Source of the DNA: Planctomycetota bacterium
Lineage (GTDB): Bacteria; Planctomycetota; Phycisphaerae; UBA1845; UTPLA1
Length of the DNA stretch: 64,000 nucleotides
Assembly: GCA_003576905.1 (NCBI GenBank)
Contig: QEVG01000001.1
Span: forward strand, 124,001-188,000
Direction: 5' to 3'
A program made the translations under genes and the position numbers. Below are positions 37,614-42,201 of this stretch, one piece after another. Positions within the stretch are counted from its first letter, which is position 1, and each line of letters begins with the position of its first letter. Under the pieces are notes generated by a model, which did not search any database, had not been told where the DNA came from, and saw only the letters and a program-made list of their open reading frames with translations.

Positions 37614-39485
37614 TCAGCCGCCCAGGACGGCATCGACGTACGGCTGAATGTCCTCGCCGTTAAACAGACCGTCAGGCGTCACGTCCGCGCGGACCGTCGT
37701 GCAGAACCCGCCCGACTTGCCGAGCAGAATCTCCACGAAGAATGCCACGTCAGCGGCATCGACACTGCCGTCGCCGTTGATGTCTCCCGCCAGCGGGTTC
37801 TCCTGGTCGTTCGGGCAGCCCGGCGTCCCCTTGACGAGCGCGCTGGCTTCCCAGTTCGCCGGCATGTCGGGCAGAGAATCCGGCACGATCCGCTCCAGCG
37901 AGTAGCCTATCCCGTCGGCCGGCGGCGGCCAGGGCAGCCGATCGAGGTACGAAAGCGAATCCACGATCACATAGGGCACGAACACCTCGGGCGGAGCCTG
38001 CGGCGTGTCCGGCTTGGCGATCGAAACTGTCTCTCCCCCGTTGCTCAGCTGCCCGGTGTACGGGCCGACAATGGCCACGGATTCGTCGAGGCCGTAGTTC
38101 ATGCGGAAGTCGGCGAGCTTGGCCGGCTCCGCGATCGGGTCGAAACTGACCACGAGCAGAAATCCGCGCGGCGGGACCGTCGTCCCGATCGGGAAGGTGT
38201 AGTTCACGCCGTCGGAAATCCGCCACGCGTGAATCTCGCCCGGGTCCGGGAAGAAGGTGTACAGGTCGACCGGCGCGTCGCTGAAGTTGTGCAGCTCGAT
38301 GAACTCGTGATCGATGTTGTCAACGCCCGGCGTCAGGTCCGGCGGGTGGTACATGATCTCATTGATGACCACGGGACCGATGCGCGGCTCCGAGTTCGCC
38401 GCCCCCTCGGTAACGCTCTCCAGTTGATAGACCGGCCCGGTGCCGTTGGGGTATCGCCCGAAGGAGACGCCGTTCTCAATTGCGCCGAACTTGATGTAGT
38501 CGCGGCCACCTGTCAGGACGCCATTCGAATCCGCCACCGAGAGCACGACGTCATCGCCCGTGGCGGAATTGAGCCCGAAGCCGAACTGGGACTGATAAAG
38601 CACGAGATAGCCATTGCCCGGAACGATCGTTCCGTCGGGGATTTCATACATTTGAAGATCGTTGAGGCTGTCGGAGAGATACCAGCCGCTGATGTCGATC
38701 GGATCCGGCGTCATGTTGTAAAGCTCAATGAAATCCTCCTGCGGAGGATCGGTATGGGTCAGCACTTCGTTGATCACGACGGTCGTTAGCTGGCTGAACG
38801 GAACGACGCTTCGCAGGACAGAAAAACTCTGCGTCGCCGCGCCGCCGCTCCACGTGTTCGGGAGACCGAAGGTGCTCGATGCGCCATCGTTGTACGCGGA
38901 AAGCGGCGTGATCGAGGGGCTGGGATCGGCCTCCAGCTTGCAGACCTCGTTGTTTCCGACTCCGCTCGTCGGACGAATCCCCTCGCCGGCGGGGCCAAAG
39001 CGCACCGTATTGAACTGGTCTTTGATCGTGATCTGCCAGTTGTCGTTATTTACGAAGAAATTGGCGGCCGTGATATATGTCCCATCGGTGGCGGCGTTTG
39101 CCCGAACGTTTAGCCACCATTTGCCGAGAACGGGCTGGTAATCGTCCACATTCGCCGAGAGGTCTTCCGAGACCGTGATGATCGTCCCGCTTCGCAGGTC
39201 GGCCCAGACTTCATGCTGGGTCAGCGCCAGCACCTGCGCGCCGCCGCCTGAGCTGTCCGTCAGCGTGAACGTCCAGCCGCGCATGTCGAGGTGATCGGTG
39301 ATCACCACAAGTTCAAACCAGTCCCCGCCGTTACCAGGCACGATCCCCCAGAATGGGTCCGACGCGCCGTTCTGGAGGACCTGGGTATCGCTCACCGCGT
39401 TGTATTCGTTGAGAATGACGTCTGCCGCCCGCGCGGGAACAGCGCAGGCGATAAGAATCGCCGTGGATCGAAGGATTGATTTCAT
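37614..39485 (-). CDS. Secreted lamin-tail domain protein with C-terminal dockerin-like EF-hands
   Basis: The start ATG 39485 (MKSILRSTAILIACAVPARA) gives 623 residues with a signal peptide ending near ARA. Three Ig-like lamin-tail (LTD) units are recognised by VILNEYNAVS, VVINEVLTHTDPPQEDFIELYN and VVINEIMYHPPDLTPG...HEFIELHN. The end carries two dockerin-like loops, GDINGDGSVDAADVAFF and ADVTPDGLFNGEDIQPY, as seen in the protein at 6162-8309. LTD proteins are common in planctomycete secretomes, sometimes beside CotH-type kinases. Here the gene follows the VTC-DUF4956-HlyD cassette on the same strand, 77 bases downstream, so it may be cargo or partner of that system. Confidence 0.82.
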   Translation of the reverse strand: MKSILRSTAILIACAVPARAADVILNEYNAVSDTQVLQNGASDPFWGIVPGNGGDWFELVVITDHLDMRGWTFTLTDSSGGGAQVLALTQHEVWADLRSGTIITVSEDLSANVDDYQPVLGKWWLNVRANAATDGTYITAANFFVNNDNWQITIKDQFNTVRFGPAGEGIRPTSGVGNNEVCKLEADPSPSITPLSAYNDGASSTFGLPNTWSGGAATQSFSVLRSVVPFSQLTTVVINEVLTHTDPPQEDFIELYNMTPDPIDISGWYLSDSLNDLQMYEIPDGTIVPGNGYLVLYQSQFGFGLNSATGDDVVLSVADSNGVLTGGRDYIKFGAIENGVSFGRYPNGTGPVYQLESVTEGAANSEPRIGPVVINEIMYHPPDLTPGVDNIDHEFIELHNFSDAPVDLYTFFPDPGEIHAWRISDGVNYTFPIGTTVPPRGFLLVVSFDPIAEPAKLADFRMNYGLDESVAIVGPYTGQLSNGGETVSIAKPDTPQAPPEVFVPYVIVDSLSYLDRLPWPPPADGIGYSLERIVPDSLPDMPANWEASALVKGTPGCPNDQENPLAGDINGDGSVDAADVAFFVEILLGKSGGFCTTVRADVTPDGLFNGEDIQPYVDAVLGG

Positions 39486-39562
39486 GGCTTGGACCCTCTC
39501 CTCTCCCTCTGGCACTCTTTCTATTCCGGCTCGGAGGCATTATACCGCGGTGAAGTGTGGAT

Positions 39563-40723
39563 TCATCGCGTGAACACGAGGGAAACCGCCTCGCCGGGCA
39601 GGAGCGATTCATCCTTGACGCTCACGACCACCTCCCGACCCCACGAGGGCCAGTTGGGCAGCCGGCGGTAGCGAATCGGAACCTCTCGGACCGCGTCGGA
39701 AACGCTGGTGACCTCCCCGACAAGCCTTCTCGGCCCCTCCGGGCCGGGCGCCGTCGGGTACAGACTGACCGTTTCGCCCACCGAAACGACCGTAGCCTTG
39801 TTTTCCGGGAGATATGCAACGATTCGCTGGGTACCGACCGGGGAGATTACCACGAGGGGGTCCCCCCCCTGCACGCGATCCCCGCTCTGGACGAACACCG
39901 CAGTCACCTGGCCGTGAATCGGAGACCTAAGCACACGTTGATCGATACGAAACGTCAATTCCTCGATCTCGCGCTCCCGCACGTCAACGGCAAGGCGAAT
40001 GGGTCTGAGAACAGCCTCGTAGTCGACCGGCACTTCCAGCTTGTTGTTGAAGTTGTACCAGCGCTTGTCGGCGTCCACGAACGCCTTCAACATGCGATCG
40101 ATGTTACGCTCGTTGCTCTCGATCCGGGCACGTACCGCCTCCACTTCGGTTTCATAGTTGTTCAGCTCCCGGAAGCCCGCGTTTTCGGTTTTGTAAAGGC
40201 GCTGAAGTATCTCGTGTTCGATCAACATGCCGGTGAGACGCGACTGATCGGATGCCTGCGTGACCAGCGCGGAGAGATACTGAATATGCGCCGACTCTCG
40301 ATCGGTCAGATACCGCCGGGCCAGGTCGGCCGCGTTGATCTCGACGTTGGTCTGATCAAGATTCAGCTTGATGCGCTCGGACTCCACCTCGTTCTGCAGC
40401 CGCTCAAGGTCCTTTGAAAGGGTAATCAGGTGCAGACGGTCCTCGCGGTCGTCCATGCGAACCAGCACGTCTCCCGGCTCGACAAACTCGTGCAGCTTTG
40501 CCCCAAGATTGCGTACCAGTCCGGGCTCCACGTTGGTCATCGTTATCGAGAGATCTTCGGCGTAGCCGATCACCGAGCCCGTGGAGAATCTGCGCGGATA
40601 GAGGCTCAGGGCCGCCGCAACAGCCCCGATCCAAAGGGCAGCCGGTATGAGCGCCTTCAATCCTCGCTTGATGTTCATGCCTGCCCACCAGCCCGTCGAA
40701 CCCACCCGGGACAGATATACCAT
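39563..40723 (-). CDS. HlyD-family membrane fusion protein in the VTC/DUF4956 cassette
   Basis: ATG 40723 begins 3 bases after the DUF4956 stop; ATG 40678 (MNIKRGLKA) is an alternative. The 386-residue protein has one N-terminal membrane span (about residues 22-42), a first lipoyl half (SITMTNVEPGLVRNLGAKLHEFVEPGD), a long coiled-coil region (about 100-255), and a second half with LRSPIHGQVTAVFVQSGDRVQGGDPL. It belongs to the HlyD/EmrA adaptor family. No ABC or RND transporter is adjacent, so the partner in the inner membrane is probably the DUF4956 protein itself. Confidence 0.8.
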   Translation of the reverse strand: MVYLSRVGSTGWWAGMNIKRGLKALIPAALWIGAVAAALSLYPRRFSTGSVIGYAEDLSITMTNVEPGLVRNLGAKLHEFVEPGDVLVRMDDREDRLHLITLSKDLERLQNEVESERIKLNLDQTNVEINAADLARRYLTDRESAHIQYLSALVTQASDQSRLTGMLIEHEILQRLYKTENAGFRELNNYETEVEAVRARIESNERNIDRMLKAFVDADKRWYNFNNKLEVPVDYEAVLRPIRLAVDVREREIEELTFRIDQRVLRSPIHGQVTAVFVQSGDRVQGGDPLVVISPVGTQRIVAYLPENKATVVSVGETVSLYPTAPGPEGPRRLVGEVTSVSDAVREVPIRYRRLPNWPSWGREVVVSVKDESLLPGEAVSLVFTR

Positions 40724-40726
40724 CGG

Positions 40727-41440
40727 TCAGGAAACTTCCTCGCGCTCAGGGTCCACGAGGAGGTTAACGAAGCGAACCGGCCCGGACGTCCGAAGGGCGT
40801 TCACGAGTGCCGGTGCGTTGTCAGGATTTCGCAATCGCACCTTATAGACGCATTGATAGACCCGTCCGCCCTGAGGGTCCATCGCCGGGCCCTCATCCAT
40901 CGACACCAGTGTCTGCTTTCGGCAGAAGCCCCGCATCAGCCGCGACATCGCCGACTGGTCGAAGCCGTCCGCGTCAACCTGCATGCGAAGGACACTGTCC
41001 ATCGAACGCCAGCCGCCAAAACCGGTCTTGTGCAGATACCACGCGATACTGTTCGCCCCAAGCGACCCGATGAGGGCCACGAGGGCATAGCCCATCCCCG
41101 CCGCCATGCCGCAGACCAGACAAAGCAGGACGTACACGTTGTCACGGGCATCGCGCACGACCGTTCGGAATCGGATGATGGCCAGGCCGCCCAGCAGTCC
41201 GAATGCGGCCAGGGGAGCCGTCATGATGAGCATGATGCTCATGGCCGATATCATCGTGATAAGCACGAGCGCCTGCGTAAACGTCCTCGAGTACGAAACG
41301 CCGCGGTGCGTCCACTTGTAAAACCAGGCATTCAACTGGCCGACAATGAAGGCGATCAGCATGCCGTAAACCAACGCGCCTGCCGACAGCGTCTGCCCGC
41401 TTTGAAGCGTCTGCATCAGGTTGTCGAGCATCTCGGTCAT
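40727..41440 (-). CDS. DUF4956-family membrane protein
   Basis: This 237-residue protein overlaps the VTC gene by four bases (ATGA). It has four hydrophobic segments in its first half (VYGMLIAFIVGQLNAWF, ALVLITMISAMSIMLIM, LAAFGLLGGLAIIRFRTVVRDARDNVYVLLCLVCG) and then a ferredoxin-like cytoplasmic domain. The IRFRTVVRDARDNVYVLL motif marks the DUF4956 family, which is typically encoded beside VTC-type polyphosphate polymerases and CotH kinases. Its role is unknown; a membrane channel or regulator of the polymerase is a common guess from gene neighbourhood. Confidence 0.88.
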   Translation of the reverse strand: MTEMLDNLMQTLQSGQTLSAGALVYGMLIAFIVGQLNAWFYKWTHRGVSYSRTFTQALVLITMISAMSIMLIMTAPLAAFGLLGGLAIIRFRTVVRDARDNVYVLLCLVCGMAAGMGYALVALIGSLGANSIAWYLHKTGFGGWRSMDSVLRMQVDADGFDQSAMSRLMRGFCRKQTLVSMDEGPAMDPQGGRVYQCVYKVRLRNPDNAPALVNALRTSGPVRFVNLLVDPEREEVS

Positions 41441-42201
41441 ACGTAGCGCGCCTCCTCAAGAGGCTGAAACAAACCGTTCGCGGCCTGGGAGCACATGAGG
41501 TACTTGCAAATTCCGCGCCGCACGAGGTCGGATTTCTCGAGAAGGTTCTCGACCCAGTCCGGGTAGGTATCCGTGAACTTGATTTCGAGGATCACCCCTT
41601 GCAGGCGAAGCGGCCACCACACCTCGCGGATTGACTGACCCGTGGTGTCCAGGACCCCGTAGCGAAGACTCCGGTCGAGGCTGACCCGAACGCGCTGGCC
41701 AAAATCGCTCTCGTACGCCTCTCTCTCATAGTGTACCGAAATGACCGGTTGGGCCTGAAGCCGCTGGCGGAGAAACATGAACTTGGTGATGTTCTTTCGG
41801 GAGCGGTCGTCGATCTGCGACTCCGATTCCGCGCCGAGAAAGTTATTCCAGAAGGCCTCGGGAACGGCCGGACCGCTTAACCTCACCCGAGTCTTGTAAA
41901 CGACCCCGTTAAGCTTGCGCTTCACCTCAAAGAACGTCGGAAGCCCGTCCATGGGCTGGTTGAACTCCCGATAAGTCCGAACCCGTAGCTTGTAACGATC
42001 GGCGCGGCGCTCCACGACGGATCGGGCGAGCACGAAGTCAGGAGAATCGAGGTACACCGAGTGAATTGGATAACGGTAGCCGGGACGTCCCACGCAATAT
42101 GCATCGAAGCGCAGGTTGGCGCGGCAGTAGCGGGTAATCCGCTCCGCCGTCCCCTCATCGACAATGAATTTGACCTCGTAGCGCTGCCACGCGGTCTGCA
42201 T
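41437..42201 (-). CDS. VTC-domain polyphosphate polymerase-like protein
   Basis: This 254-residue protein is a VTC domain: RYEVKFIVDEGTAERI at the start, YPIHSVYLDSPDF, RADRYKLRVRTYRE (basic residues binding phosphates), FFEVKRKLNGVVYKTRVRL and VILEIKFTD near the end. In yeast Vtc4 this tunnel fold makes polyphosphate from ATP. Key basic and acidic positions (K/R in LRVRTY, E and K in FEVKRK, E in LEIKFTD) are kept, so activity is plausible. It is the first gene of a cassette with DUF4956 and HlyD proteins and has a candidate OmpR/PhoB-family binding site about 185-215 bases upstream. Confidence 0.88.
   Translation of the reverse strand: MQTAWQRYEVKFIVDEGTAERITRYCRANLRFDAYCVGRPGYRYPIHSVYLDSPDFVLARSVVERRADRYKLRVRTYREFNQPMDGLPTFFEVKRKLNGVVYKTRVRLSGPAVPEAFWNNFLGAESESQIDDRSRKNITKFMFLRQRLQAQPVISVHYEREAYESDFGQRVRVSLDRSLRYGVLDTTGQSIREVWWPLRLQGVILEIKFTDTYPDWVENLLEKSDLVRRGICKYLMCSQAANGLFQPLEEARYV

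Follow-up and report, generated by a model that had tools for sequence, protein, structure and literature searches.

What would a gene for a periplasmic adaptor do beside the gene of a polyphosphate polymerase? The question is raised by a four-gene cassette in a 64,000-nucleotide stretch of DNA from a Planctomycetota bacterium (GCA_003576905.1, contig QEVG01000001.1, positions 124,001 to 188,000; hereafter the window), in which the genes of a VTC-domain polymerase, a DUF4956 membrane protein and an HlyD-type adaptor are followed by the gene of a secreted protein with lamin-tail (LTD) and dockerin domains. The original prediction for this stretch was a system for the export of polyphosphate or for the phosphate-linked modification of surface proteins. 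The four-base overlap of the VTC and DUF4956 genes, the three-base spacer between DUF4956 and HlyD and the LTD/dockerin gene next in line, all described there, were confirmed by the open reading frames (ORFs), the sequence and Pfam; the spacer, ccg, runs from the DUF4956 stop to the HlyD ATG.

The VTC, DUF4956 and HlyD genes are a real conserved unit, behaving as one inherited or transferred block. Judged from the sequences, the unit would be a dedicated exporter of the VTC product, most likely inorganic polyphosphate, driven by the polymerase and spanning the envelope. The probability of this reading is put at about 0.6.

Conservation of the VTC-DUF4956-HlyD unit

The conservation of the unit was determined in two sets of loci, which overlap (e.g. 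in L169 and L190) and the counts of which are not additive. The phylum sample comprised 294 genomes, 78 of them with VTC; the 101 matches, two of which fell in a single ORF, resulted in 99 stretches and, with the window, in 100 loci. DUF4956 was found on the VTC strand in 83 of these, some of the remaining 17 lying near contig ends. The presence of HlyD beside VTC-DUF4956 in relatives had been set beforehand as one test of the original prediction, and HlyD was detected immediately 3' of DUF4956 in 23 of the 100 loci. All 23 ORFs of the phylum stretches matching the cassette HlyD profile were located in the cassette and none elsewhere there. The named-genome scan was performed with patterns from ten DUF4956 proteins of HlyD-linked loci, and of the 331 relatives confirmed, the best 80 were analysed. 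VTC was present in 79 of these 80 DUF4956 loci and HlyD stood next to DUF4956 in 76, a share biased toward the HlyD type by the seeding. Counted among the 76 are L099, the VTC gene of which lies beyond its contig, and L110 and L115, in which a truncated or short ORF gave the HlyD match. Three of the four loci without HlyD (L129, L136, L170) are on contigs that end less than 200 bases from DUF4956. The fourth, L140, was rejected as a true exception after Pfam had revealed an HlyD-like gene upstream of VTC, and it kept its HlyD-less label in the VTC tree.

The gap between DUF4956 and HlyD did not exceed 25 bases in 20 of 23 HlyD loci of the phylum sample and in 67 of 75 named ones; the medians of the two sets were 2 and 3 bases. 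As the gaps are also short across relatives, the tight spacing in the window is not due to chance. In the window's order, the strong HlyD matches (E<1e-20) of a search of 101 genomes adjoined DUF4956 and VTC with three exceptions, two of which were cut by contig starts and one of which was a disordered copy. The records of the named scan were labelled as Planctomycetota, Sumerlaeota, Hydrogenedentota, Deltaproteobacteria, Proteobacteria, Acidobacteria, Rhodothermaeota, Eisenbacteria or just 'bacterium', some of them by planctomycete orders or classes.

A maximum-likelihood tree was built by a quick method, without bootstrap, from 91 VTC proteins, 34 of which are HlyD-linked. On it, the HlyD label required 2 changes versus 27.5 when shuffled. 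A branch with an SH-aLRT value of 94 held all 34 together with two others. By record titles the HlyD loci cover Planctomycetota, Myxococcota, Pseudomonadota, Rhodothermota, Sumerlaeota, Hydrogenedentota and Acidobacteriota. The pairwise distances of VTC, DUF4956 and HlyD were correlated in 86 loci (r=0.82-0.88), a result that common descent alone could give. Shared descent can equally yield co-occurrence, and the genes might be merely co-regulated or co-inherited and form no machine. We consider this very improbable, given that the gene order is kept over several phyla and that a second HlyD-like group adjoins DUF4956 elsewhere.

Table 1. Genes of the cassette and the shared stop/start in the window
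Feature	Positions	Strand	Remarks
VTC-domain polyphosphate polymerase gene	41437-42201	-	254 aa; PF09359 E=1.4e-33
VTC stop / DUF4956 start, shared ATGA	41437-41440	-	read from sequence
DUF4956 inner-membrane protein gene	40727-41440	-	PF16316 E=9.4e-7
HlyD/EmrA-type periplasmic adaptor gene	39563-40723	-	386 aa; HlyD_3 PF13437 E=3.8e-11
Secreted protein gene, two LTD domains and C-terminal dockerin	37614-39515	-	PF00932 E=4.7e-25; PF00404 E=9.6e-6

The cassette is flanked by a QueG-type gene upstream and a DUF1254/DUF1214 gene downstream (Pfam). No promoter was found by a sigma-70 scan for either the LTD gene or the operon. No ABC, MFS or RND genes were detected among the four cassette genes and the two flanks, or, in relatives, in the interval from VTC to HlyD. 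Fusions of VTC, DUF4956, HlyD, CotH or outer membrane efflux protein (OEP) were not seen, no ORF of the surveyed loci matching two profiles.

Polymerase, membrane protein and adaptor

The window VTC protein scored 116.9 bits with PF09359, well above the curated cut-off of 23. With a profile built from 21 VTC proteins of the cassette, yeast Vtc4 structures were ranked first (3g3q, E=1.2e-18), and in the profile alignment R264, R266 and E426 of Vtc4 corresponded to R73, R75 and E206 of the window protein. Twelve more bring to 15 the charged Vtc4 positions that the window protein retains, and all of them are invariant across the 21 aligned rows; we take the matched charged tunnel positions to be catalytic. 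The window VTC thus looks active, its Vtc4-type tunnel residues being intact, and the loss of active-site residues that would have spoken against the original prediction was not observed. Activities are diverse across the wider tunnel-enzyme (CYTH/TTM) superfamily, and the VTC domain might instead make or cleave another phosphate compound, the product of which the export part would then handle; with all fifteen positions kept, this is quite improbable. According to the accessible text of PMC9911596, R264, R266 and E426 were altered in the Vtc4 of the yeast complex studied by cryo-electron microscopy. No SPX domain was matched by Pfam in the window protein.

The window genome (4.7 Mb) gave a single VTC match. 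VTC as its sole polyphosphate enzyme was considered and rejected: no PPK1 match was obtained, but a PPK2 ORF is present (G000:C59:35142-36575, with two PPK2 matches within it). Across the phylum sample, PPK1 was matched in 168 of 294 genomes.

The window DUF4956 protein scored 29.2 bits with PF16316, slightly below the cut-off of 30.6. PF16316 was matched at E<=0.1 by all 54 aligned DUF4956 proteins, the window's included (best 1.3e-15), and the window protein could be aligned over its full length to relatives of 29-54% identity. In the AlphaFold2 model (pLDDT 86.8), five transmembrane helices (20-44, 52-72, 76-94, 98-115, 119-139) are followed by a C-terminal alpha-beta domain of the ACT/ferredoxin type, for which Foldseek gave matches to NikR, S6 and the MgtC C-terminal domain 2lqj. 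Positions 90, 92, 96 and 99, around the turn between the third and fourth helices, were basic in 54 of 54 proteins, and D97 and D100 were invariant. These basic positions would face the cytosol if the ACT domain is cytosolic, and they would then be sited where the polymerase would pass on its polyanion. The MgtC profile was weakly matched by 45 of the 54 proteins at E<=0.1 (best 2.1e-5). The window protein, with 15.5 bits versus the curated cut-off of 31.4, is not assigned to MgtC/SapB.

The adaptor scored 44.1 bits with HlyD_3 (cut-off 22.2). Its AlphaFold2 model (pLDDT 91.6) consists of a transmembrane helix at 16-47, a coiled-coil hairpin at 93-262 and a split barrel-sandwich. The predicted protein has the N-terminal transmembrane helix, barrel-sandwich and alpha-hairpin by which HlyD/membrane-fusion proteins are recognised. 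The top Foldseek match was EmrA 4tko (E=7.9e-17, TM-score 0.41-0.46), and EmrA and MacA were the best structural matches overall. The TM-scores with these, 0.36 to 0.62, indicate that the domain arrangement of the model differs from theirs. The HlyD proteins of the deltaproteobacterial and proteobacterial cassettes L107, L110, L127, L144, L149 and L155 were shorter. Several of these loci have solute-binding/permease and MalK-like ATPase genes upstream on the opposite strand; in some deltaproteobacterial and proteobacterial loci such an ABC importer set is found in the vicinity of the unit, on its upstream side and for the most part on the opposite strand.

A proposed route across the envelope

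The proposed route has four steps. VTC would polymerise phosphate from ATP at the cytosolic face, as suggested by the Vtc4-like tunnel residues. The nascent chain would enter an oligomer of the five-helix, MgtC-like DUF4956, a putative counterpart of the eukaryotic VTC membrane channel; DUF4956 is given this role because the genes are coupled, its basic residues are conserved and the unit has no other inner-membrane partner. The HlyD protein, EmrA-like in its predicted fold, would span the periplasm to a TolC/OEP outer-membrane channel. Polyphosphate would thereby arrive at the cell surface and might act there with lamin-tail, dockerin and CotH-kinase proteins, to which neighbourhood and co-occurrence point. 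In yeast VTC, synthesis is coupled to translocation via a basic transmembrane channel, as described in the accessible part of PMC9911596.

The outer-membrane step was followed with OEP profiles which, like those of CotH and LTD, were built here from Pfam-identified seeds. Neighbour clustering revealed a same-strand outer membrane efflux protein gene (PF02321) right after HlyD in 16 named loci. With all groups counted, an OEP/TolC gene stood immediately 3' of HlyD in 19 of the 75 named and 5 of the 23 phylum HlyD loci, which supports the export part of the original prediction; room of at least 700 bases past HlyD was available in 67 of 75 and 21 of 23, respectively. The OEP proteins belong to unlike groups: that of the 16 named loci, that of L163 and L156, that of L167 and a TolC family in Hymenobacter. 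In L163 the order is CotH, VTC, a small LTD-type ORF, DUF4956, HlyD, OEP. In two further loci a secretin gene (PF00263) takes the place of OEP right after HlyD (L113:2743-4656, L148:7397-9541); it could be an alternative pore of the outer membrane or lie there by chance.

Polyphosphate could also be exported across the inner membrane only. HlyD would then serve as a scaffold, or tether the complex to proteins of the surface or the periplasm, and would not belong to an outer-membrane conduit. Consistent with this, no adjacent OEP was detected in 56 of the 75 named and 18 of the 23 phylum HlyD loci (some of them contig-cut), the window included, and VTC-DUF4956-CotH loci without HlyD occur in the same diderm phylum. 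We nevertheless regard it as rather unlikely, since a full EmrA/MacA-like hairpin is kept in the HlyD model and OEP genes of several unlike groups are found directly 3' of HlyD.

Several observations weigh against the envelope-spanning exporter. HlyD was missing beside DUF4956 in 77 of the 100 planctomycete VTC loci, although these bacteria are diderm, and in 56 of the 79 phylum loci that had DUF4956 and either HlyD or more than 1 kb of room. HlyD thus marks one VTC type and is no general part for crossing the outer membrane; the latter idea was rejected on the same count, and no HlyD was picked up in the 77 loci by loosening the cut-off or by searching with a profile of the second HlyD-like group. 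No OEP gene stands beside HlyD in the window and the OEP matches of the genome are all on other contigs, so that a shared TolC would have to serve the window unit. The transmembrane half of DUF4956 matched no solved structure, the listed matches covering the ACT-like domain and the transmembrane part being barely probed. Apart from these points, another VTC type was noticed in the phylum sample (e.g. L225, L227, L239, L240, L248); it has the order DUF4956-CotH-VTC without HlyD and forms a separate branch of the tree.

The second HlyD-like group, too, is partly unfavourable to that exporter. It was found in the Eisenbacterium locus L140, in the order CotH-HlyD-VTC-DUF4956, and on the Hymenobacter volaticus plasmid NZ_CP095062.1 (L185), in the order HlyD-like, DUF4956, TolC. 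The two HlyD-like proteins are interrelated (25% identity, E=1e-28) and were missed by the cassette HlyD profile. With HlyD_3 the Eisenbacterium protein reached E=8.7e-4, which is below the cut-off, and the Hymenobacter protein had no Pfam match at E<=0.01; a VTC match was absent from the entire Hymenobacter plasmid, where the DUF4956-HlyD pair may have another cargo. If the naming as HlyD holds, DUF4956 has been paired with such adaptors more than once, which would speak for it as the inner-membrane export part.

The same plasmid bears on the possibility that DUF4956, HlyD and OEP export some other substrate, a surface protein or a polysaccharide, while VTC polyphosphate acts as a regulator or an energy source. 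In its favour, genes for CotH, a polyphosphate polymerase and DUF4956 are located next to the Pel polysaccharide clusters of Gram-positives, as reported in the accessible part of PMC7112168, and the plasmid has HlyD-like, DUF4956 and TolC genes without VTC. No polysaccharide synthase occurred among the recurrent neighbours identified by Pfam, which represent part of the neighbour clusters. Most CotH proteins (72 of 92 complete ORFs, by a crude test) and the LTD protein carry signal-like N-termini, so that a separate exporter would be unneeded for them. We therefore consider another substrate unlikely.

Export of the VTC product through DUF4956, HlyD and OEP would agree with the Gram-positive loci. 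In three Gram-positive plasmid records VTC-DUF4956 was present and HlyD was not matched; two of these records also had CotH. A C. perfringens locus includes VTC and CotH genes (PMC2879425, accessible part). Such loci fit with HlyD and OEP serving the second membrane; the many planctomycete loci without HlyD speak against it.

Surface proteins and related systems

The LTD gene of the window can start at GTG 39515, 47 nucleotides past HlyD, or at ATG 39485, 77 nucleotides past it. The ATG is the likely start, as it is followed by the signal-peptide-like MKSILRSTAILIACAVPARA. A similar LTD protein was found in the same place after HlyD in the congener L061 (E=4.6e-276), and the fixed place is common to L061 only; the other searched congener, G322, gave no HlyD match. 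LTD was therefore rejected as a core part: elsewhere CotH or LTD proteins are near, and their position is not fixed. In this respect the original prediction, which had the LTD protein in the unit, was not supported. Seven ORFs of the window genome carry LTD domains, one of them below the cut-off, and with so few the LTD neighbour is unlikely to be due to chance. No cohesin partner for the dockerin was matched in the window genome. The CotH/LTD proteins L169:11580-16160 and L138:1660-6768 start with stretches that look dockerin-like by eye (GDLN), no Dockerin match being reported.

A CotH or LTD protein lay within the fetched stretch in 15 of the 23 phylum and 30 of the 75 named HlyD loci. CotH itself was present in 11 of the 23 HlyD-linked loci versus 54 of the 77 other phylum VTC loci, and the window genome has three CotH matches only. 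At the genome level, CotH was found in 88 and VTC in 78 of the 294 genomes: 71 had both, 7 VTC only, 17 CotH only and 199 neither, with kinship not corrected for. The signal-like N-termini of the CotH ORFs mentioned above were detected by a crude script in both overlapping sets, which in the VTC control picked 2 of 179; by the same test the N-terminus of the window LTD protein is signal-like.

Parts of the unit are known from other systems. Synthase-dependent secretion, as of cellulose and alginate, has a polymerase, an inner-membrane channel and periplasmic and outer-membrane parts in one operon. The proposed unit would share this set of parts and differ by the inorganic polymer, another synthase and other membrane parts. 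With the eukaryotic VTC complex (Vtc1/Vtc3/Vtc4) it has the polymerase domain and the matching tunnel residues in common. Unlike that complex, the window protein has no SPX match, and the MgtC-like five-helix DUF4956 replaces the VTC membrane domain. We know of no counterpart of HlyD or OEP in the yeast complex. EmrAB-TolC and MacAB-TolC are similar in the HlyD-type adaptor, in its EmrA-like predicted fold and in the OEP partner of some relatives; the unit differs from them in having no MFS, ABC or RND motor gene, the proposed inner-membrane part being DUF4956. MgtC/SapB proteins are similar in the weak sequence matches of DUF4956 and in the ACT-like C-terminal domain, whereas the window protein is below the Pfam MgtC cut-off and has another gene neighbourhood. 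The accessory set of the Gram-positive Pel clusters shares its VTC and DUF4956 families with the unit, as far as the accessible text of PMC7112168 goes, and CotH is often close by; HlyD is added in the window unit, and OEP in some relatives. No pel gene of the pelDEADAFG type was adjacent on the two direct flanks of the unit, the genes further out not having all been scanned.

No paper on a pairing of VTC with HlyD was found in a literature search, the coverage of which lacked most subscription papers and preprints. PMC7112168 reports the set of CotH, polyphosphate polymerase and DUF4956, with no mention of HlyD in its accessible part, and in that of PMC10434189 DUF4956, HlyD and TolC appear only as separate entries of transcriptome tables. 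As far as can be judged from sequence, the cassette is probably an undescribed machine that moves polyphosphate out of the cell.

The exported polyphosphate might serve as a phosphate store, or as the phosphoryl donor of secreted CotH kinases that modify lamin-tail and dockerin surface proteins, after passage through a machine of VTC, DUF4956, HlyD and TolC; this extension is tentative and, in our estimate, doubtful. According to the accessible part of PMC7821199, where the ATP for CotH phosphorylation comes from in the spore coat is an unanswered question. If true, a polyphosphate donor would explain how kinases can act outside the cell despite the scarcity of ATP there. A polymerase-coupled exporter would suggest a function for DUF4956 and, by its co-occurrence with CotH, would make the question of the CotH phosphate source testable with a construct of a few genes.

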